Of a stretch of DNA of 64,000 nt, positions 39,316-50,856 are shown one piece after another. The stretch is from Stutzerimonas urumqiensis (GTDB lineage Bacteria > Pseudomonadota > Gammaproteobacteria > Pseudomonadales > Pseudomonadaceae). The position numbers were made by a program, and so were the translations under genes. Below the pieces are notes generated by a model. The model saw only the letters and a program-made list of their open reading frames with translations. It was not told where the DNA came from and did not search any database. The stretch covers positions 124,001-188,000 of the forward strand of contig NZ_RBZQ01000004.1 in assembly GCF_003640395.1 (NCBI RefSeq), read 5' to 3'. Every line of letters begins with the position of its first letter. Positions within the stretch are counted from its first letter, which is position 1.

Positions 39316-41856
39316 ATGGCGCTAGAGGAATACAACCGCAAGCGTGATTTCGGCGCCACGCCCGAACCGGCCGGTGCCAGCCGCAGCCGTAAGGCTCAGC
39401 AGACCGAGCACGCGCTGCAATACTGCATCCAGAAGCACGACGCCACGCGCCTGCACTATGACTTTCGCCTCGAGCTCGATGGCACGCTCAAGAGCTGGGC
39501 CGTGCCGAAGGGGCCGAGCCTCGACCCGAAGGCGCGGCGGCTGGCCGTCCATGTGGAGGACCATCCGCTCGAATACGCGACCTTCGAAGGCAGCATTCCC
39601 AAGGGGCATTACGGCGCCGGCGATGTGATCGTCTGGGACCGCGGCCTCTGGGTGCCCGAGGGCGATCCGCGCGAGGGTTATCGCAAGGGCAAGCTCAAGT
39701 TCAGGCTCGAGGGCGAGAAGCTCGCCGGCAGCTGGAATCTCGTGCGCACCAAAAGCGACAGCAGCGGCAAGGAGCAGTGGTTCCTGATCAAGTCCAACGA
39801 CGAGGCGGCCCGGCCCGGTGATGAATACGACATCGTCGTTGCCGAGCCCGACAGTGTGCTCAGCGATCGCACCCTCATTCCGCGCAAGCGGGGGGCTGCC
39901 AAGGCGGCACCGGCAGCGGCCAGGCAACCGGTGCGCCGCCGATCGCGAAAGGAAGAGCCGGCTGTCAGCCTGGAAGGCGCCAAGCCGGCGGCGCTGCCGG
40001 ACAGCTACAAGCCGCAGCTCGCCACGCTGGTGGAATCCGTGCCTGATGGCGAGTGGTTCTACGAGATCAAGTTCGACGGCTACCGGATCATGGCGCGGAT
40101 CGAGTCCGGCAAGGTCCAGCTCTTCACGCGCAACGGCCACGACTGGACTGCGAAGATGCCGGAGCAGGCCGAGGCGCTGGCCGGGCTGGCGCTCGACTCG
40201 GCATGGCTCGATGGCGAGGTGGTGGTGCTGAACGAGGACGGCACGCCGGACTTCCAGGCGTTGCAGAACGCCTTCGAGATCGGCCGCAGCGGCAACATCG
40301 TCTACTACCTGTTCGACATGCCCTATCTCAATGGCATGGATCTGTCTGGCGTGGTCCTGGAGCAGCGCCGGGCCGCGCTGCGCGCCGTGCTCGAACGGAA
40401 CGAGAGCGAGTTGCTGCGCTTCTCGGACGATTTCACCGAACAGCCGGACAGCGTGCTCGACAGCGCCTGTCAGATGAAGCTCGAAGGGCTGATCGGCAAG
40501 CGGGCCGGCAGCAGCTACGTATCGCGCCGCAGCAGCAACTGGGTGAAGATCAAGTGCAAGCATCGGCAGGAATTCATCATCGTCGGCTACACCGAGCCCA
40601 AGGGCACGCGCAGCGGCTTCGGCGCACTGCTGCTGGGGCTGCACGGCGACGACGGCGAGCTGCGTTATGCCGGCAAGGTCGGCACCGGTTTCAACCAGAT
40701 CACCCTTCAAAGCCTTTTCGCCCGGCTGAAGCCACTCGAGCGTGCCAAGCCGGCGCTGGCCAAGCCGCCAACCGGCGCTGACGCCAAGGGAGCGCACTGG
40801 GTCGAACCGGAACTGATGTGCGAAGTCGCCTTCGCCGAGATGACCCGGCAAGGCGTGGTGCGGCATTCGGTCTTCCACGGCTTGCGCGAAGACAAGCCGC
40901 CCCAGGCCATCACCTACGAGAAGGCCAAGCCGACGCCGCGCGCGCCGGCCGCGAAGCCGTCTGGCAGCGCGGCGAAGATCCGCATTTCCAACCCCGAACG
41001 GGTGATCGACAAGAGCATCGGCGCCACCAAGATGGAGCTCGCGCGCTACTACGCCGGGGTGGCGCCCTGGGCCTTGCCGCACCTACGCCAGCGGCCGCTC
41101 GCGCTGGTTCGCGCCCCGGAGGGCATCGAAGGCGAGCTGTTCTTCCAGAAGCACGCCGACAAGCTGACGATCCCCAACATCACGCAGCTGGACCCCGCGC
41201 TGTATCCCGAGCACGCGCCGCTGCTGGTGATCGACACGCCCGAAGCGCTGGTCGGCGCGGCGCAGATGGGCACGCTCGAATTGCACACCTGGAATGCCGT
41301 GGCGCCCGAGCTGGACAAACCGGATCGCTTCGTCCTCGACCTCGACCCGGACCCGGCGCTGCCGTGGAAACGCATGGTCGAGGCGACGCAACTGACGCTG
41401 ACGCTGCTCGAGGAAATCGGCCTGCGCGGGTATCTCAAGACCAGCGGCGGCAAGGGCATGCACATCGTGGTGCCGCTGACGCCGGGCGAGGGCTGGGCGC
41501 CGGTCAAGCATTTCAGCCAGGCGATTGCACGCTACCTGGCCAAGTTGCTGCCCGAGCATTTTTCGGCGGTCAGCGGCCCCAAGAATCGCGTCGGCCGCAT
41601 CTTCATCGACTACCTGCGCAACAGCAAAGGCGCCAGCACCGTCGCGGCCTATTCGGTACGCGCCCGCGAAGGGCTCGGCGTCTCGGTGCCGATCCACCGT
41701 GACGAACTGCTCGACCTCAAGGGCGCGAACCTGTGGACGATCCGCAACCTCATCGAGCGCCTGGAAGAGCAGGGCGACGACGACCCCTGGGCGGACATGT
41801 ACGACATCGACCAGACGATCACCGACGATATGCGCGAGCGATTGGGGATGGGGTGA
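39316..41856 (+). CDS. ligD: multifunctional ATP-dependent DNA ligase LigD (phosphoesterase-ligase-polymerase)
   Basis: An 846-residue LigD with the same domain order and size as the P. aeruginosa enzyme. Residues 1-180 are the 3'-phosphoesterase domain (HDATRLHYDFRLE, later GHYGAGDV). The ligase domain covers about 210-530, with nucleotidyl lysine Lys252 in YEIKFDG. The polymerase domain covers about 550-846, with metal-binding DLDPDP, KTSGGKGMH and FIDYLRN. It processes and seals Ku-bound double-strand breaks. A separate polymerase-only paralogue is encoded beside ku at 2448-3455. GAGGTGAAGCGTC precedes ATG 39316. REP sequences follow its stop. Confidence 0.96.
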   Translation: MALEEYNRKRDFGATPEPAGASRSRKAQQTEHALQYCIQKHDATRLHYDFRLELDGTLKSWAVPKGPSLDPKARRLAVHVEDHPLEYATFEGSIPKGHYGAGDVIVWDRGLWVPEGDPREGYRKGKLKFRLEGEKLAGSWNLVRTKSDSSGKEQWFLIKSNDEAARPGDEYDIVVAEPDSVLSDRTLIPRKRGAAKAAPAAARQPVRRRSRKEEPAVSLEGAKPAALPDSYKPQLATLVESVPDGEWFYEIKFDGYRIMARIESGKVQLFTRNGHDWTAKMPEQAEALAGLALDSAWLDGEVVVLNEDGTPDFQALQNAFEIGRSGNIVYYLFDMPYLNGMDLSGVVLEQRRAALRAVLERNESELLRFSDDFTEQPDSVLDSACQMKLEGLIGKRAGSSYVSRRSSNWVKIKCKHRQEFIIVGYTEPKGTRSGFGALLLGLHGDDGELRYAGKVGTGFNQITLQSLFARLKPLERAKPALAKPPTGADAKGAHWVEPELMCEVAFAEMTRQGVVRHSVFHGLREDKPPQAITYEKAKPTPRAPAAKPSGSAAKIRISNPERVIDKSIGATKMELARYYAGVAPWALPHLRQRPLALVRAPEGIEGELFFQKHADKLTIPNITQLDPALYPEHAPLLVIDTPEALVGAAQMGTLELHTWNAVAPELDKPDRFVLDLDPDPALPWKRMVEATQLTLTLLEEIGLRGYLKTSGGKGMHIVVPLTPGEGWAPVKHFSQAIARYLAKLLPEHFSAVSGPKNRVGRIFIDYLRNSKGASTVAAYSVRAREGLGVSVPIHRDELLDLKGANLWTIRNLIERLEEQGDDDPWADMYDIDQTITDDMRERLGMG

Positions 41857-43373: not shown

Positions 43374-44017
43374 TGAAGCATCCGATCTGGCGCGCCAGCG
43401 TCTTCGTGCTCGGCTTGCTGCCACCGCTCTATTGGCTGTACCTCGGCTGGACGTCCGCCCTCGGACCGGACCCTGGGCAGGTACTGGTGGAACGGCTGGG
43501 GCAGGGCGCGCTGGTGATCCTGCTGCTGACGTTGTCGCTGTCGCCGCTGCAATGGACGATGCGCTGGACCGGGTGGGCGCACGTCAGGCGGCAGCTGGGG
43601 CTGTGGTGCTTCGCCTATGTCTGCCTGCACCTGACGGCCTACCTGCTGTTCATCCTCGGGCTGGATTGGGCGCAACTGGGCGAGGAATTGGTCGAGCGAC
43701 CCTACATCATCGTGGGTGCGCTGGCCTGGCTCTGCCTGCTCGTGATGGCCGCGACCTCCAACCGCTGGAGCATGCGCAAGCTGGGCCCGCGCTGGAAGAA
43801 GCTCCATCGCCTGGCCTACGCGGTGCTGGGGCTCGGCCTGCTGCACATGCTGTGGGTGGTGCGCTCGGACATCGGCCTGTGGCTGATCTATTTCGCCTGC
43901 GGTGCGGCCTTGATGCTGATGCGTACGCCCTGGGCCAGCCGTCGCCTGAAGCAACGGCGGCGCGCTCGACAGGGCGCGCGAACGGCCGACCGTCAGCCGC
44001 CGGCCGCTAGGTTTTGA
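43373..44017 (+). CDS. msrQ: haem-binding membrane subunit of the MsrPQ system
   Basis: A 214-residue ferric-reductase-like membrane protein with about six helices. It passes electrons from the quinone pool to MsrP. Family features are an N-terminal helix ([16 protein letters not shown]), the histidine-bearing helix [15 protein letters not shown], and [21 protein letters not shown] with two further histidines. The C-terminus is basic. It overlaps msrP by 1 bp, and its 3' end overlaps the convergent chemoreceptor gene by 11 bp. Confidence 0.93.
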
Positions 44018-45641
44018 AGCGACCCACCTGCTGGCTGAGCGTTTCGGCAAGCCGGACCATCCGCTCGCTCGTCGTCCGGCTGTGTTCGGAGGCCTCGGCC
44101 GACTGATTGGAAAGCGCCTGGATGTCGCTGATGTTGCGTGCGATGTCCTCGGTCGTCTGGCTCTGTTCCTCGCAGGCGGTGGCGATCTGCGCAGCCATGT
44201 CGTTGATGCGCACCACCGAATGGGCGGCCTCGGTCAGTGACCGCTCGACGTCCGGCGCCTGACTCACGCCCTGTTCGGCGATCGCCACGCCACGCTGCAT
44301 GACGCCGACCGCCTGCGCGGTCGCCGCTTGCAGGCTCTGCATCATCTGCTGGATGTCGCGGGTGGACGCCTGGGTCCGTGCGGCGAGGGCGCGCACCTCG
44401 TCGGCCACCACGGCGAAGCCACGGCCCTGCTCGCCGGCACGCGCCGCTTCGATGGCCGCGTTGAGCGCCAGCAGGTTCGTCTGTTCGGCGATGCCCTCGA
44501 TGACCGACAGCACCCCGTCGATCCTGCCGGTGTCCTGCTCGAGGCGGTCGATCACGTGGGCGGCTTCGCCCACGTCGGCGGCGAGGCGGCGCAGGGCGTC
44601 CATCGTCGCAGCCACCACCTGGCTGGACACCCGGCCCTGGCGGTCCGCGTCTTCAGCCGATTGCGCCGCATTGTGCGCGTTGCTGGCCACCTCATGGATG
44701 GCGGCACTCATTTCGGTGGCGGCCGTGCTGACCTGATCGATCGCCTGGTACTGGTCATTGACCAGCGATTGCTGCCGACTGGCGATGCGATCCATTTCGA
44801 GCGAGGCATCGGTCACCTGATGGGTCGACTCGGCGACCTGGCGCACCAGACCCTGCAACTGCCCGAGGAAACGGTTGAGCGCGCCGCCGAGCTGGCCGAG
44901 TTCGTCGCGCGACGCGATGTCGACGCGGCGGGTGAGATCGCCCTCGCCATCGGCGATGTCTTCGATGCGCGCGAGCATGGAACGCAGCGGCTTGGTCACC
45001 ACACCCGGGAACAGCACGATCAGCAGCGCGAACAGGCACAACCCGGCGAGCAGGGTGCCGAGCACGAGCATCTGGCCGGCCTCTGCGGCCTCGGCGGCCA
45101 GGGTGCGTTCGATGCCGACCTCTTCGTTGGTCAGGTCGGTCAGGCGGTCGATGAGGTTGCGCGCAGCGCTGAATTGCTGGAGGCCGTCACCAAAGCTCAG
45201 GTCGCCGGCCTGGTCCATGTCATCGGACGAACCGCGCTGTGCCAGGCTGATCGCACGCAGCGAGGCCTGCTGCCAGGTGGCGAATGCGCGCTCGAACTCC
45301 GCGGCGAGCGCGCGGCCGCGTTCGGAGTCGGTGCTGCGGGCATAGGCCTGGATGCGTTCATGCGCCTGCTGGCTATTGGCGCGATGCTCGTCAAGAAGCC
45401 CCGGTTCGAGCACGCCGGCGACGATCGCCCGTTCGGCGGCCTGGGCCTGATAGAGATCGCGGTCGGCCTCAAGTAGCGTCGTGCTCTGTGGGAGCAGCTC
45501 TTCGGCGACATGCCTCAGGCGCTGTTGCAGGTCGGCAACCGTTCGGTAGGCCAGCGCACCTTCGACCAGAAACAGCAGGGCAAGAAAGAGGAGGGGGAGC
45601 GTCAGTTTCCAGCGGAAACTCAAGTTGTAGAAGGACTGCAT
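44007..45641 (-). CDS. methyl-accepting chemotaxis protein
   Basis: A 544-residue transmembrane chemoreceptor. A first helix ([18 protein letters not shown], about residues 15-32) and a second ([20 protein letters not shown], about 190-210) enclose a ~155-residue all-helical periplasmic domain, probably a four-helix bundle. A HAMP linker follows ([20 protein letters not shown]), then the signalling domain with the conserved tip [20 protein letters not shown]. The ligand is unknown. No pentapeptide for CheR docking is seen at the C-terminus (QQVGRFKT). It is convergent with msrQ and divergent from the gluconate genes. Confidence 0.93.
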
Positions 45642-45821
45642 GGGGACACCGTGGCTGTGCGAGTGGTTCGCGTTGGGCAGTCACTTCCATGTCGACCGGT
45701 ATGCCCCTTCTATCGGCAGGGATTTGCAAGGCTGTAGGGGAGTCGCGCGTTGGCTGGGGCCGTTGAGCCGATCGCTTCGGATTGACAGGCTCGGCGCGCC
45801 TGAAGAATCCCCAAGGCAGGG

Positions 45822-45849
45822 TTGACACGCAGGATGTTAGCGCTACCAT
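45822..45849 (+). promoter_or_regulatory. sigma-70 promoter with embedded LacI/GntR-type operator before the gluconokinase fusion
   Basis: TTGACA at 45822-45827, a 16-bp spacer, and TACCAT at 45844-45849. Between them lies TTAGCGCTA (45837-45845), the 8-bp palindrome TAGCGCTA typical of LacI-family operators and, from memory, the core of the P. aeruginosa GntR site. The bound repressor would block RNA polymerase. The 18-bp string 45828-45845 recurs exactly at 46492-46509. Confidence 0.7.
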
Positions 45850-45899
45850 TCGGCCAACAATCACAAGACAGCGCAGCATTCCAGCTGCCGGGATCGATC

Positions 45900-47057
45900 A
45901 TGCAGACGCCCGAAGCGCCCAACCTCACCGCTCCGAGCCCATCCCGCGCCCTCGTCGTCATGGGCGTGAGCGGATGCGGCAAGACAGAAACCAGCCTTGG
46001 CGTCGCCCGATGCCTGGGTTATCGCCACATCGAAGCCGACCATTTCCACTGCCCTGAAAACGTCGCCCGCATGAAGGCCGGCACGCCGCTGAGCGACGCC
46101 GATCGCGTGGTATGGCTCGATCGGCTGATCGTCGAAATGCGCCAGGCGCAGGCGGACGGCGAGGGCTTCGTCCTGGCCTGCTCGGCGCTCAAGCGCAGCT
46201 ACCGGGACCGTCTGCGTGCGGCGGTACCGGAATTGTGTTTCGCCCATTTGGTGGTCGATTACGAGACAGCGCTCGACCGTGTCGGCGCGCGGCCGGGCCA
46301 TTTCATGCCCATTTCGCTGGTCGACAGCCAGTTCGCCACGCTTGAGTCACCGGAAGGCGAGGCGGGAGTGCTGTCGGTCGATGCGACGCGCCCGGTCGAC
46401 GAGGTCGTCCAGACCATCTGCACCTGGATGCAGCGCCAGACGCCGGGGGATGCCATTCAGGCGCAGGTGGCCCTTTCCGCCGCCGCGACGCCGCAGGATG
46501 TTAGCGCTAACGCCGCTGAGCAGGCGCCGGAGCTCACGGTGCCGCCCCTCTATACGGGCCGCCTCGCGCAGACGCTCGACAAGCTCACCGATGGCTTCAT
46601 GGCGATATTGCTGGCCGTGATGGTCATCGCCGTCTTCGCCAATGTGGTCGGCCGCTACGTATTCGATGCGGGCTGGACCGGGGCGGAGGAGCTGTCGCGC
46701 CTGGCCTTCGTCTGGCTGGTGTTCGTCGGCGTCGCATCCGGGATGCGGCGTGGCGAGCTGATGAGCTTCACGCTGCTGCGGGACAGGTTGCGCGGCGTCG
46801 CGCAGCGGGTGGTCGATACCCTGAGCTGGCTGCTGGTGGCGGTCGTCAGTTTCCTCAGCGCGTGGGGCGGCTGGTACCAGGTCAAGTACGGCTGGGGCAA
46901 TGAAAGCCCGGTGCTGGCGTATCCGGTGGTGCTGGCGATGGTGCCGATCCTGGTGAGCATGGGCGCGCTCGGCGTGCTGGCACTGCTGCAGGTCGTCCAG
47001 ACCTGGCGTCGCCAGGCGCCGCCGCGCGCCGCGAGTGCAAACGTCACCGCCGACTAG
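45900..47057 (+). CDS. gluconokinase fused to TRAP transporter small permease (GntK-DctQ fusion)
   Basis: A 385-residue in-frame fusion. Residues ~17-178 are a complete GntK-type gluconate kinase with P-loop GVSGCGKT (22-29), DHFHCPENVARMKAG and the ALKRSYRDRLR lid region; it makes 6-phosphogluconate with ATP. Residues ~214-385 are a DctQ-type TRAP small membrane subunit with four hydrophobic spans, starting LTDGFMAILLAVMVIAVFAN. The ~35-residue Ala/Gln-rich linker includes DNA of a second operator (46492-46510). An in-frame GTG at 46539, preceded by GGAG (46529-46532), could also start DctQ alone. ATG 45900 is chosen because upstream starts fall in the promoter. dctM follows 40 bp later. Confidence 0.85.
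   Translation: MQTPEAPNLTAPSPSRALVVMGVSGCGKTETSLGVARCLGYRHIEADHFHCPENVARMKAGTPLSDADRVVWLDRLIVEMRQAQADGEGFVLACSALKRSYRDRLRAAVPELCFAHLVVDYETALDRVGARPGHFMPISLVDSQFATLESPEGEAGVLSVDATRPVDEVVQTICTWMQRQTPGDAIQAQVALSAAATPQDVSANAAEQAPELTVPPLYTGRLAQTLDKLTDGFMAILLAVMVIAVFANVVGRYVFDAGWTGAEELSRLAFVWLVFVGVASGMRRGELMSFTLLRDRLRGVAQRVVDTLSWLLVAVVSFLSAWGGWYQVKYGWGNESPVLAYPVVLAMVPILVSMGALGVLALLQVVQTWRRQAPPRAASANVTAD
46492..46510 (+). promoter_or_regulatory. second GntR-type operator copy inside the fusion linker
   Basis: CGCAGGATGTTAGCGCTAA: 18 bp identical to the promoter operator at 45828-45845, and here the palindrome TTAGCGCTAA (46501-46510) is perfect. No good -35 box precedes it. It lies 28 bp before the possible GTG start of the DctQ part. 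Confidence 0.65.
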
Positions 47058-47097
47058 GCATAACAACAAGACGGGCACTGCCCGCGAGGTTTCCTGC

Positions 47098-48375
47098 ATG
47101 ACTGTCGTCGTCTTTCTTTCGTCGCTCCTCGGCTTCATGTCGTTCGGCATGCCGATCGCCTTCGCACTGCTGCTGACCGGCGGCGTGCTGATGTGGTACC
47201 TGGATTTCTGGGACGTGCAACTGCTGGCGCAGAATCTCAAGGCCGGCGCCGACAGCTTCCCGCTGCTAGCCGTGCCGTTCTTCATCCTGGCCGGCGAGCT
47301 GATGAACGCGGGCGGAATTTCCCGCCGCATCATTAACATGGCGCAGGCGTATTTCGGCCACCTGCGTGGCGGATTGGGTTACGTCGCCATCGCGGCGTCG
47401 GTTCTGCTGGCCAGCATGTCCGGCTCGGCGCTTGCCGACACCGCCGCGCTGGCCACCTTGCTGCTGCCCATGATGCGCGAACGCGGATATCCGCTGGGCT
47501 CGTCCGCCGGTCTGGTTGCGGCGGGCGGGATCATCGCGCCGATCATTCCGCCGTCGATGCCCTTCGTCATCTATGGCGTAGTGACCAATACGTCGATCAG
47601 CCAGCTGTTCCTGGCCGGTCTGGTGCCGGGCCTGATCATGGGCGCCGGACTGGTGATCGCCTGGACGCTGATTTCCCGCGGGATGACCGAGCCCTTGCCG
47701 CCCAAGGCGACCAAGGCGGAGCGCCGCCGCTCGCTGATCGACGGGGCGGCCGCGCTGATGCTGCCGGTCATCATCGTCGGCGGTCTGCGCGGCGGCCTCT
47801 TCACGCCGACCGAAGCGGCCGTTGTCGCGGCCGTCTACGCGCTGCTCGTGTCAGTGCTGCTGTACCGGGAACTGAGCTGGCAGGCGCTGGTGGAGGTGCT
47901 GACCCGCGCGAGCCGTACGACGGCGTCGGTCATGTTCCTCTGCGCGGCGGCGACGGTGTCCGGCTACATGATCACGCTGGCCCAGCTGCCGGCGGAAATC
48001 GCCGCGTTGCTCGGCCCGCTGGCTGACCATCCGCGCCTGCTGGTCGCCGGCATCATGCTGCTGATGGTGGCGATCGGCATGGTGCTCGATCTCACGCCGA
48101 CCATCCTGATCCTGGGGCCGGTACTGGCGCCGATCGCGGCGGGCGCGGGGGTCAATCCGGTCTACTTCGGCGTGATGTTCGTGCTGATCGGCTCGATCGG
48201 GCTGATCACTCCGCCGGTCGGCACCGTGCTGAACGTCGTCGGTGGCATCGGCAAGCTGCGCATGGAGGTATTGGTGCGCGGCGTGATGCCTTTCTTCCTT
48301 ATTTACCTGATGGTCGTGGCGCTGCTGGTGGCATTCCCCGCGATCGTCACGGTGCCGCTCGAGTGGCTGCACTGA
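47098..48375 (+). CDS. TRAP transporter large permease (DctM)
   Basis: A 425-residue polytopic membrane protein of the TRAP large-permease family, the usual length with roughly 11-12 helices. Family signatures include FGMPIAFALLLTG, VPFFILAGELMNAGG, SMSGSALADTAAL and ALLVAFP near the end. It forms the sodium- or proton-driven channel with the DctQ part encoded upstream. ATG 47098 fits the family start; a GCGAGG sequence lies upstream. By context the substrate is probably gluconate or a related sugar acid. Confidence 0.94.
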   Translation: MTVVVFLSSLLGFMSFGMPIAFALLLTGGVLMWYLDFWDVQLLAQNLKAGADSFPLLAVPFFILAGELMNAGGISRRIINMAQAYFGHLRGGLGYVAIAASVLLASMSGSALADTAALATLLLPMMRERGYPLGSSAGLVAAGGIIAPIIPPSMPFVIYGVVTNTSISQLFLAGLVPGLIMGAGLVIAWTLISRGMTEPLPPKATKAERRRSLIDGAAALMLPVIIVGGLRGGLFTPTEAAVVAAVYALLVSVLLYRELSWQALVEVLTRASRTTASVMFLCAAATVSGYMITLAQLPAEIAALLGPLADHPRLLVAGIMLLMVAIGMVLDLTPTILILGPVLAPIAAGAGVNPVYFGVMFVLIGSIGLITPPVGTVLNVVGGIGKLRMEVLVRGVMPFFLIYLMVVALLVAFPAIVTVPLEWLH

Positions 48376-48472
48376 ACCCGGCTTGCGACCGGCCGGCAAG
48401 GCTGCCCGGTCGCCAAGAGGCTTCCTCGGAAGCGATTTCGTCCCTGTCCAACAACAACAAAGGTACCGCCAC

Positions 48473-49495
48473 ATGAAACGCTCGCTAATCGCCTCGTTCG
48501 CGCTTGTCACGCTATCAGCCATGGTCAGCCTCAATGTCCAGGCCGCAGAGGATGATGTGCGTTCGCGCATGATCCGCTTCGGCTACGGCCTGAACGAAGA
48601 CAGCAACCAGGGCAGGGCAGCCAAGCTGTTCGCCGAGGAAGTCGCCAAGGCATCCGATGGCAAGTTGAAGGTCCGCACCTTCGGCTCCGCCAGCCTCGGA
48701 TCGGACGACCAGATGCAGAATGCGCTGATCGGCGGCGCCCAGGAAATGATGGTCGGCTCCACTGCGACGCTGGTGGGCATCACCGAGGAAATGGCCGTCT
48801 GGGATACGCCGTTCCTCTTCGAAAACGAGCAGCAGGCCGACGCCGTGCTCGACAGCGAAGTCGGCCGCAAGATCATGGACAAGCTCGAAGAGAAGGGCCT
48901 GGTCGGGCTCGTCTACTGGGAAAATGGCTTCCGCAACATGACCAACAACGTTCGGCCGATCGAGAAGATCGAGGATTTCGAGGGGATCAAGCTGCGCGTC
49001 ATGCCCAACCCGGTCTTCATCGAGACCTTCAAGCTGCTCGGTGCCAATGCCGTGCCGCTGCCATTCTCGGAATTATTCACGGCGCTCGAGACCAAGGCGG
49101 TGGACGGCCAGGAAAACCCCTTCAACACCATCCTGTCGTCGAAGTTCTATGAGGTTCAGGACTACCTGACCATCACCAACCACGTCTACAGCCCCTGGAT
49201 CGTCACGGCGTCCAAGCGCTGGTGGGATGGGCTGTCGCAGACCGAAAAAGACATTCTTATGGAGGCGGCCGCCAAGGCGAGGGACTTCGAGCGCCAGGAC
49301 ACCCGTGCCGAAGGCGCCAAGGCGCTTGCCGCGTTGAAGGAAGAGGGCATGAAGGTCAACAAGATCAGCCCCGAAGTGACGCAGCAGATGCGTGAAAAGG
49401 CGCAACCGGCGATCCAGAGCGTCATCGATCGTGTTGGCGAGGATCTGTTCCAGGAAGTCCAGGCGGAACTGGAGAAAGCCAAGGCCGCCCAGTAA
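48473..49495 (+). CDS. TRAP transporter substrate-binding protein (DctP)
   Basis: A 340-residue periplasmic binding protein. The signal peptide is MKRSLIASFALVTLSAMVS, with cleavage near VQAAEDD at about residue 24. The mature protein shows the DctP pattern: IRFGYGLNEDSNQGRAAKLF, then VWDTPFLFENEQQA, GIKLRVMPNPVFIETFKLLG (with the conserved Arg that contacts carboxylates) and VDGQENPFNTI. It captures an organic acid, by context gluconate or a similar hexonate, for the DctQM permease. The next gene is the LacI-type regulator; a hairpin at 49505-49525 lies between. Confidence 0.94.
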   Translation: MKRSLIASFALVTLSAMVSLNVQAAEDDVRSRMIRFGYGLNEDSNQGRAAKLFAEEVAKASDGKLKVRTFGSASLGSDDQMQNALIGGAQEMMVGSTATLVGITEEMAVWDTPFLFENEQQADAVLDSEVGRKIMDKLEEKGLVGLVYWENGFRNMTNNVRPIEKIEDFEGIKLRVMPNPVFIETFKLLGANAVPLPFSELFTALETKAVDGQENPFNTILSSKFYEVQDYLTITNHVYSPWIVTASKRWWDGLSQTEKDILMEAAAKARDFERQDTRAEGAKALAALKEEGMKVNKISPEVTQQMREKAQPAIQSVIDRVGEDLFQEVQAELEKAKAAQ

Positions 49496-49504
49496 GGGGC
49501 AGGA

Positions 49505-49525
49505 GAGCAGGGCGCTGCCCTGCTC
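49505..49525 (+). terminator. hairpin after dctP
   Basis: A perfect 9-bp stem (GAGCAGGGC with GCCCTGCTC) and a 3-nt loop, 9 bp after the dctP stop. No T-run follows. It could end or attenuate the transport operon before the regulator gene. Confidence 0.5.
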
Positions 49526-49583
49526 ATGACCGGCGCCATCCGGCGGTTTGCTAGGATGGCGCTCCTTTCCGTCGAGCACCTTC

Positions 49584-50603
49584 ATGACTCAACGCCGCCG
49601 CCGCGCACCGGAGCGCGTCACGCTGTCGGACGTCGCACGCGCCGCCGGCTGTTCATTGATGTCCGCCTCACGCGCACTGTCCCAGCCAGCCCTGGTGTCC
49701 GACAGCTTGCGTGAGCGGGTCGAAAAAGCCGCCAAAGAGCTGGGCTATGTGCCGCATCCCGCCGCCCGCAGCCTGGCAAGCGCACGCTCGAACCTGGTCG
49801 CCGTGGTTATTCCGTCGCTATCCAACGCCGTGTTCGTCGACATGATCGAAGCGGCACAACATGTGCTCATGCCAGCCGGCTTCGAACTGATGATCGGCGT
49901 GAGCCATTACCGCCCCGAAGAAGACGAGCGCCTGCTCAAGGCCTACCTGGCGCATCAGCCGGCGGGGCTGCTGGTGACTGGGTTCGAACGCAGCGAAGCG
50001 GCGCGGGAGCTGCTGGCCAGCTACAGCCGGCCGATTGTGACCCTGATGGAACTCAGCCAAACACCGGACGATTGCTGCGTCGGGTTTTCCCAGCTCGATG
50101 CAGGCGCCGCCATGACCAGGACGCTCATCGAGCGTGGTTACCGTCATATCGCATTCGCCGCGGCGCAGCTCGATCCGCGCACGCTGCAGCGCGCCGAAGG
50201 CTACCGCCAGGCAATGCGCGCCATTGGGCGCCATGACCCGGCGCTCGAGCTGCTGACACCGGAGCTGTCATCGATCGCGCTCGGCGCCGAGCTGCTCGAT
50301 CGATTGATCGCGCGCCAGCCGCAGGTCGACGCGATTTTCTTCAACAACGACGACCTGGCACTGGGTGCGCTGTTCCGCGCGCGGCAGCTCGGCATCGAGG
50401 TACCTGGGCGTTTGGCCGTGGCCGGCTTCAACGATCTGCCAGCCGCCGCCTGGATGCATCCGTCATTGACGACGGTGCGAACGACCCGCGCGCAGATCGG
50501 CGAACTGGCGGCGAAGATGCTGCTGGACCTGATACGCGGCAAGCAGCCGACGGCACGGCAGATCGACGTGGGCTTCGAAGTCATCGTGCGCGAGAGCGCT
50601 TGA
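49584..50603 (+). CDS. gntR: LacI family transcriptional regulator, GntR-like (gluconate repressor)
   Basis: A 339-residue LacI/GalR family repressor. The N-terminal helix-turn-helix is VTLSDVARAAGCSLMSASRA (about residues 12-31), and the hinge HPAARSLASARSNL follows near 60-73. The rest is a periplasmic-binding-protein-like effector domain (VVIPSLSNAVFVDM; FFNNDDLALGALF). By position and by the TAGCGCTA operators before and inside the kinase fusion it probably represses gluconate uptake and phosphorylation and responds to gluconate or 6-phosphogluconate. ATG 49584 was preferred over an in-frame TTG 12 codons upstream, although its ribosome site is weak. Confidence 0.9.
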   Translation: MTQRRRRAPERVTLSDVARAAGCSLMSASRALSQPALVSDSLRERVEKAAKELGYVPHPAARSLASARSNLVAVVIPSLSNAVFVDMIEAAQHVLMPAGFELMIGVSHYRPEEDERLLKAYLAHQPAGLLVTGFERSEAARELLASYSRPIVTLMELSQTPDDCCVGFSQLDAGAAMTRTLIERGYRHIAFAAAQLDPRTLQRAEGYRQAMRAIGRHDPALELLTPELSSIALGAELLDRLIARQPQVDAIFFNNDDLALGALFRARQLGIEVPGRLAVAGFNDLPAAAWMHPSLTTVRTTRAQIGELAAKMLLDLIRGKQPTARQIDVGFEVIVRESA

Positions 50604-50856
50604 TGGCCAGGTGGCACTTGCTGGCTCAGTATCTGAGTTCGCATAATCTATATTATGTTAAATCACATAACCGACCAGACCGCGGTGCTCATCGCCATCG
50701 GTTAGGAAATTTCTTGCACGGCGTCAAAAAGCCCTACTTTTTGATTTGACGCATGTACTTACAATGTTCAGCGGCCTACAATCGCGCACCATTAGAATCG
50801 CGACGCACTGTCGCAGTCGCGAACCGTGAACAAGCCGTTCCGCAAAGGAGTCCGGC
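50604..50856. other. AT-rich intergenic region upstream of nuoA
   Basis: This 253-bp gap is clearly more AT-rich than its surroundings, especially 50640-50780 (e.g. TATATTATGTTAAATCACA). Two TACAAT hexamers lie near 50760 and 50778. It very likely holds the nuo promoter, but I could not pair a convincing -35 with either hexamer, and I see no Anr/FNR box. Confidence 0.4.

Follow-up and report, generated by a model that had tools for sequence, protein, structure and literature searches.

Fusions are known among TRAP transporters, where the small membrane subunit Q can be joined with the large subunit M, or the binding protein P with Q. Gluconokinases of the GntK/IdnK type are normally soluble and separate proteins. 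A physical link between uptake and phosphorylation is known from group translocation by the phosphotransferase system (PTS). On the side of regulation, the lac operon carries an auxiliary operator, O2, inside lacZ, and E. coli gntT has a double operator; the GntR sites of Pseudomonas aeruginosa reportedly share a TAGCGCT core.

Here we describe a gene of Stutzerimonas urumqiensis that touches on all of these systems. A single stop-free frame of 385 codons runs on the forward strand of our window (the whole stretch of 64,000 nucleotides that was analysed) from the ATG at 45900 to the TAG at 47057. It encodes a full GntK-type gluconokinase, then a linker, then a full DctQ subunit of a TRAP transporter, just as a sequence-only reading of this DNA had proposed. 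Both families score above their cut-offs: TIGR01313 covers residues 44-203 with 169.1 bits against a cut-off of 113.75, and PF04290 covers residues 267-397 with 90.5 bits against a cut-off of 28.3, the residue numbers being those of a 411-residue version of the fusion that uses the longer frame from TTG 45822. This TTG is an unlikely gene start, and the ATG at 45900 chosen by the sequence-only reading is to be preferred, because TTG 45822 opens the -35 hexamer TTGACA of the better promoter-like site. The P-loop GVSGCGKT pointed out in that reading is present in the kinase domain; with the other conserved blocks of the kinase (invariant columns were determined among 31 fusions) it aligns with the solved gluconokinases 4eun, 3t61 and 1knq. 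The narrower E. coli-type equivalog models NF007336 and NF008583 match the kinase below their cut-offs, as the YiaM-like model NF007374 does for the DctQ part, and a single-sequence structure model of the fusion, made with no alignment, was poor (pLDDT 47). The kinase thus resembles GntK/IdnK enzymes in its full domain, its TIGR01313 score and its alignment with solved structures, but differs from them in being joined to a four-helix membrane subunit. Likewise the transporter resembles the DctPQM/SiaPQM type, with DctP, DctQ and DctM all above cut-off in one gene run (PF03480, PF04290, PF06808), whereas its small subunit bears a whole kinase at the N-terminus. The coordinates of all features are collected in Table 1.

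Table 1. Features of the fusion gene and its operon; positions are those of the window.
Feature	Position	Strand	Basis or remark
Sigma-70-like operon promoter, TTGACA-16-TACCAT	45822..45849	+	10/12 matches
Upstream GntR-like operator, TGTTAGCGCTACCA	45835..45848	+	between -35 and -10, overlaps -10
GntK domain, N-terminal part of fusion	45900..46430	+	TIGR01313 above cut-off; aligned with solved 4eun, 3t61, 1knq
Linker between the two family matches	46431..46580	+	sequence and length vary among relatives
Intragenic GntR-like operator, TGTTAGCGCTAACG	46499..46512	+	inside linker codons D-V-S-A-N
DctQ small TRAP membrane subunit, C-terminal part of fusion	46581..47057	+	PF04290 above cut-off
dctM, large TRAP membrane subunit	47098..48375	+	PF06808, TIGR00786 above cut-off
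dctP, TRAP substrate-binding protein	48473..49495	+	PF03480, TIGR00787 above cut-off
gntR, LacI-family gluconate regulator	49584..50603	+	NF052440 488.8 bits, cut-off 400

Downstream of the fusion and on the same strand follow dctM, dctP and the LacI-family gene gntR, and this gntK-dctQ-dctM-dctP-gntR order was found in all 16 fused loci with at least 7.5 kb of sequence. A promoter scan of 45600-50700 gave two promoter-like sites (shuffled sequences average 1.0), of which TTGACA-16-TACCAT is the better one. The regulator passes NF052440, the NCBI equivalog model for Pseudomonas GntR, and the nearest solved chain to DctP is 7bbr_A (E 3.3e-107), which we take to be a sugar-acid binder of Advenella. 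GntK, GntR and this nearest solved protein together point to gluconate, or a close sugar acid, as the substrate. The fused kinase is the sole GntK-type match in its genome (E 0.001), no gluconokinase of the FGGY type reaches the cut-off in the same genome, and edd, encoding 6-phosphogluconate dehydratase, is present elsewhere in it. A methyl-accepting chemotaxis gene (TarH/4HB, HAMP and MCP signal domains; 44007-45641, reverse strand) lies divergent from the fusion operon, and on an Azospirillum lipoferum plasmid a chemoreceptor likewise adjoins the regulator of a gntK-TRAP operon. Farther upstream the window also carries a large multi-domain DNA ligase D with phosphoesterase, ligase and primase-polymerase parts (39316-41856, forward strand).

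The sequence-only reading had left open how widely proteins with both domains occur. We found the single-frame fusion in 65 of 298 sampled genomes of the family, so that it is widespread in part of the Pseudomonadaceae, and all 65 were re-read from the DNA. They belong to four genera: 45 of the 56 same-genus genomes listed, three in genus g27, two in g25 and 15 in g36. The 56 are the same-genus genomes of a listing that puts this genus first (50 with a match, six without), and 76 unmatched family genomes stand outside it. In 62 of the 65 one match spans the two domains, while three (G027, G034, G147) have a longer linker; the nearest relative fusion (locus L032) is 74% identical. The fusion is therefore real: a stop codon or frameshift between the domains would have spoken against it, and the frame is open across both of them in all 65 genomes. 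A linker frameshift in one further genome (G033, locus L046) indicates that errors or mutations do happen at the joint, but with the frame kept in 65 re-read genomes we count a sequencing or assembly error as already refuted and give it practically no chance.

At a threshold of E 1e-30, 202 of the 298 family genomes have a match, and the 137 without the fusion comprise G033 and a set in which the matches listed lie in the kinase part. In G033 the frameshift splits the frame, whether as a real mutation or a sequencing error, and the operator described below is retained. We could rule out that G033 preserves an ancestral split, as the linker in which its frameshift lies is of the fusion type and has kept this operator. 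Among the matches listed, a kinase alone was found at 60-65% identity in three genomes (G005, G209, G248), and a more distant kinase match in G021 (48% identity). Three same-genus loci (L050-L052) have the kinase without DctQ, so the kinase can exist alone; possibly these loci descend from the fusion and lost their DctQ part secondarily. In these three, gntK was the only one of six window queries (gntK, dctQ, dctM, dctP, gntR and the chemotaxis gene) to match within 10 kb, and no operator match was found in the 10 kb of each. Beyond the family, no fusion turned up in 390 genomes of the order (E 1e-55), in 369 of the class and 398 of the phylum (E 1e-50), or in 299 of the family of genome G1195 (E 1e-55); these samples overlap, the best four to six candidates per genome were scored, and remote fusions could escape such limits. 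In 72,556 plasmid records a single record had a place covering at least 80% of the query, and the best row (H1, 87%) consists of separate genes. A scan of genome contigs with the window peptides returned one locus, a kinase match in Rhodobacter (L031).

The part newly found by this analysis is the operator-bearing linker; the sequence-only reading had missed the linker operator and its upstream copy, together with the spread of the fusion in part of the family. Across fusions the linker holds an operator-like site, mostly TGATAGCGCTAAC, which lies within an unchanging stretch, TGATAGCGCTA[A/C]C, of an otherwise drifting linker. With at most one mismatch allowed, all 65 fusions have the pattern TGNTAGCGCTANC upstream of the gene and 60 of them have it in the linker as well; the rest of the gene is free of it in every one of the 65. 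The five fusions without a linker operator (L028, L032, which is the nearest relative, L033, L037 and L039) indicate that the inner site is dispensable in some lineages. The distance from the upstream to the linker operator is 664 bp in the window and 629-664 bp across 52 loci, with no tight helical phase by eye. The only two exact copies of the core TGTTAGCGCTA in the 64-kb window are those at the fusion gene; with one mismatch there are four hits (palindromes, counted on both strands) against 0.39 expected, a number reached by 0 of 100 shuffles. Genome-wide the 13-base pattern is unspecific, with five matches at four places, two of them at the fusion, against nine for a reversed control, and it is therefore the pairing and the conservation of the sites that count rather than the pattern alone. 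Of the two remaining places, one (L074:1501-1513, G000 C1:217419-217431) is followed after 57 bp by a gene for a likely chemoreceptor, which has an HBM sensor domain and a HAMP domain. This gene is incomplete in the stretch examined, which ends before the gene does, and its product is possibly a gluconate-regulated chemoreceptor. The other (L075:1501-1513, G000 C12:385009-385021) falls inside a long frame which, judged by eye, resembles a sensor histidine kinase, and this match is probably due to chance.

What, then, keeps the linker stretch constant? In 57 distinct sequences (seven loci added later lie outside this set and one duplicate was removed) mean pairwise identity is 77% for the kinase, 80% for DctQ and 42% for the linker, whose length ranges from 34 to 62 residues. 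Four of the 57 have linkers of 54-62 residues; those of L047, L048 and L049 exceed the usual length by some 15-25 residues, the additional residues standing directly after the operator and being, in L048 and L049, rich in glycine, glutamine and arginine. The codons of the operator are nearly frozen while the linker protein drifts: Asp is GAT in 53 of 55 cases, Ser is AGC in 51 of 51 and Ala is GCT in 51 of 52, although GCT makes up 12% of the Ala codons in these genes overall. Of 78 triplets of conserved columns, the operator codons D-S-A have the lowest sum of synonymous changes, three, as against 9 for the second lowest and a median of 30; single columns are equally quiet elsewhere, since no more than two synonymous changes are seen in 14 of the 192 conserved columns, of which three belong to the operator. 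When synonymous codons were shuffled with the protein kept, an operator-like match arose in 965 of 13,000 cases (7.4%). The constraint on this stretch therefore most likely acts on the DNA. It might be argued that D-S-A-N/T is a protein motif, say a hinge or a cleavage site, as the residues are conserved along with the codons. We consider this very unlikely and rejected the motif on the codon constraint just described; a site of the same pattern also stands upstream of the gene in all 65 loci.

A DNA site inside the gene could act in more than one way. If the inner operator controlled an internal promoter, DctQMP would be made without the kinase and the gene would yield two products. In 60 of 65 loci the operator-like site does lie just before the dctQ part, and in the window GTG 46539 is preceded by a GGAG starting ten bases before it, so that this GTG could be the start of a minor separate DctQ. 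The window is one of 11 in 57 loci with a start that has a Shine-Dalgarno-like core before DctQ, at scattered places; the same test was passed by 40 of 57 gntK starts and by 55 of 57 dctM starts (a looser test in the latter case, allowing any frame). The position of such a start is not conserved among the 57 loci, and eight of them have no in-frame ATG, GTG or TTG before DctQ at all; an in-frame ATG within the stretch searched is present in 35, two of them with a Shine-Dalgarno-like core. Moreover, the region upstream of the gene scores above 95% of background windows for a sigma-70 promoter in 51 of 57 cases and the inner site in 4 of 52, the median inner score (2.3) being close to that of the background (1.7). 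An internal promoter thus seems improbable to us. The inner site is best explained as an auxiliary operator that would act through a DNA loop or by obstructing RNA polymerase, and the linker DNA probably doubles as an operator similar to lac O2. The upstream operator falls between -35 and -10 of the best promoter in 13 of the 15 upstream regions listed. The arrangement shares with lac and E. coli gntT a LacI-family repressor, one operator at the promoter and a second operator-like site inside the transcribed region, but differs in that the inner site lies in the linker of a gene fusion and is known from sequence alone.

How did the fusion come about? In all seven outgroup loci read at the joint (L067, L071, L072, L073, L079, L080, L081) gntK and dctQ are separate neighbours, which agrees with the view that DctQ is normally a separate protein and suggests one fusion event; two further loci flagged as unfused (L068, L069) lie outside this set. 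In two Azospirillum loci the genes overlap, with the gntK stop 4 bp inside the dctQ start; in the other five outgroups gntK ends before dctQ begins. Three annotated plasmid loci show a divergent regulator, then gntK, dctQ, dctM and dctP. Such operons on Comamonas and Azospirillum plasmids resemble the fused one in gene order, in a LacI-type regulator and in two upstream operator-like sites; they differ in the divergent orientation of the regulator, in having a gntK stop and a dctQ start of their own (with a 15-bp gap or a 4-bp overlap), and in a joint that carries no operator-like site. A tree was built from 34 kinase domains (20 fusions, the three kinase-only same-genus copies and 11 outgroups, including the kinase-only L070 of the Pseudomonadaceae). 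In it the fused kinases and L050-L052 stand apart from the outgroups with a branch support of 100. The kinases of L050-L052 fall among the fused ones, but with a support of 59 and a long branch. The simplest reading of these sequences would be a single fusion event in the Pseudomonadaceae from adjacent genes of an operon, with DctQ later lost in a few lineages.

Ahead of gntK, all seven outgroup loci carry two operator-like sites at a spacing of 87 to 145 bp (at most two mismatches), with further weak matches farther off in L071, L072 and L073; no operator-like site was found at the gntK/dctQ joint of any of the seven. The two-operator design may therefore be older than the fusion, its second site now lying in the linker, or the pair may, in outgroups with a divergent regulator, serve two promoters instead. 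The adjacency of the genes in the outgroups also allows a neutral origin, in which the fusion is a read-through product of two operon genes whose parts act as if separate and whose joint brings no benefit. In the four hits from the family of G1195 the two parts share a frame and are separated by a single stop codon, so that its loss could fuse the genes, and the linker protein is poorly conserved. However, among the close matches listed (about 60% identity or more) 65 are fused and one, the frameshifted L046 of G033, is split; this comparison concerns close matches, and of the more distant kinase matches in other genera only L070 was read at the joint. The operator, too, is kept at 60 of 65 joints. 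Taking both sides together we regard a purely neutral joint as rather unlikely.

The sequence-only reading had further placed the N-terminus of DctQ, and with it the kinase, on the cytoplasmic side. In the 57 sequences the loop between TM2 and TM3 has a mean net charge of +3.4 and loops 1 and 3 are near zero; because of this positive loop, and because the kinase needs cytosolic ATP, an N-in and C-in topology of DctQ is plausible. The charge case rests on this one loop: the stretch before TM1 (mean charge -0.96) and the neutral C-terminus (0.0) do not speak for it. Tethering of the kinase at the inner face of the transporter would follow from the architecture, and so would a fixed stoichiometry and local capture, the kinase being fused to DctQ.

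Our favoured explanation, to which we assign a probability of about 0.72, is a bifunctional, tethered kinase-transporter with a second GntR operator in its linker. In such a protein the gluconokinase would sit on a linker at the cytoplasmic N-terminus of DctQ, with one kinase per DctQ/DctM transporter in a fixed 1:1 ratio. In the periplasm DctP would bind the substrate, be it gluconate or a close sugar acid, and DctQM would import it; the tethered kinase would then convert gluconate to 6-phosphogluconate for the Entner-Doudoroff route, and the 1:1 tethering would make trapping of gluconate at the transporter exit likely. Without gluconate, GntR would hold both operators and thereby form a DNA loop or block RNA polymerase, in the manner of lac O2; binding of GntR to the operator pair is what the sequences predict. 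As a more specific and tentative version, on balance doubtful but well worth considering, the built-in kinase might trap gluconate as it leaves the channel, in a non-PTS, two-step vectorial phosphorylation, with the joint being kept as DNA and its operator looping with the promoter. The likeness to group translocation that the sequence-only reading had drawn can be taken as an analogy only. Uptake and phosphorylation are physically linked in the fusion as in the PTS, but here by a separate secondary transporter and a kinase domain. The family matches of the fusion, dctM and dctP are to GntK and TRAP families, with no PTS enzyme II domain among them, and there is no sign of phosphorylation during passage.

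In conclusion, the gntK-dctQ gene offers a natural single-gene test case for the question of whether fixing an enzyme to a transporter speeds nutrient capture. The comparators for such a test exist in nature as well, with the same genes unfused in the outgroups and the kinase alone in a few relatives. The gene also illustrates that a fusion linker can stay constant through a probable role in DNA control while its protein drifts, and it calls for caution, since conserved linkers are easily misread as protein motifs.
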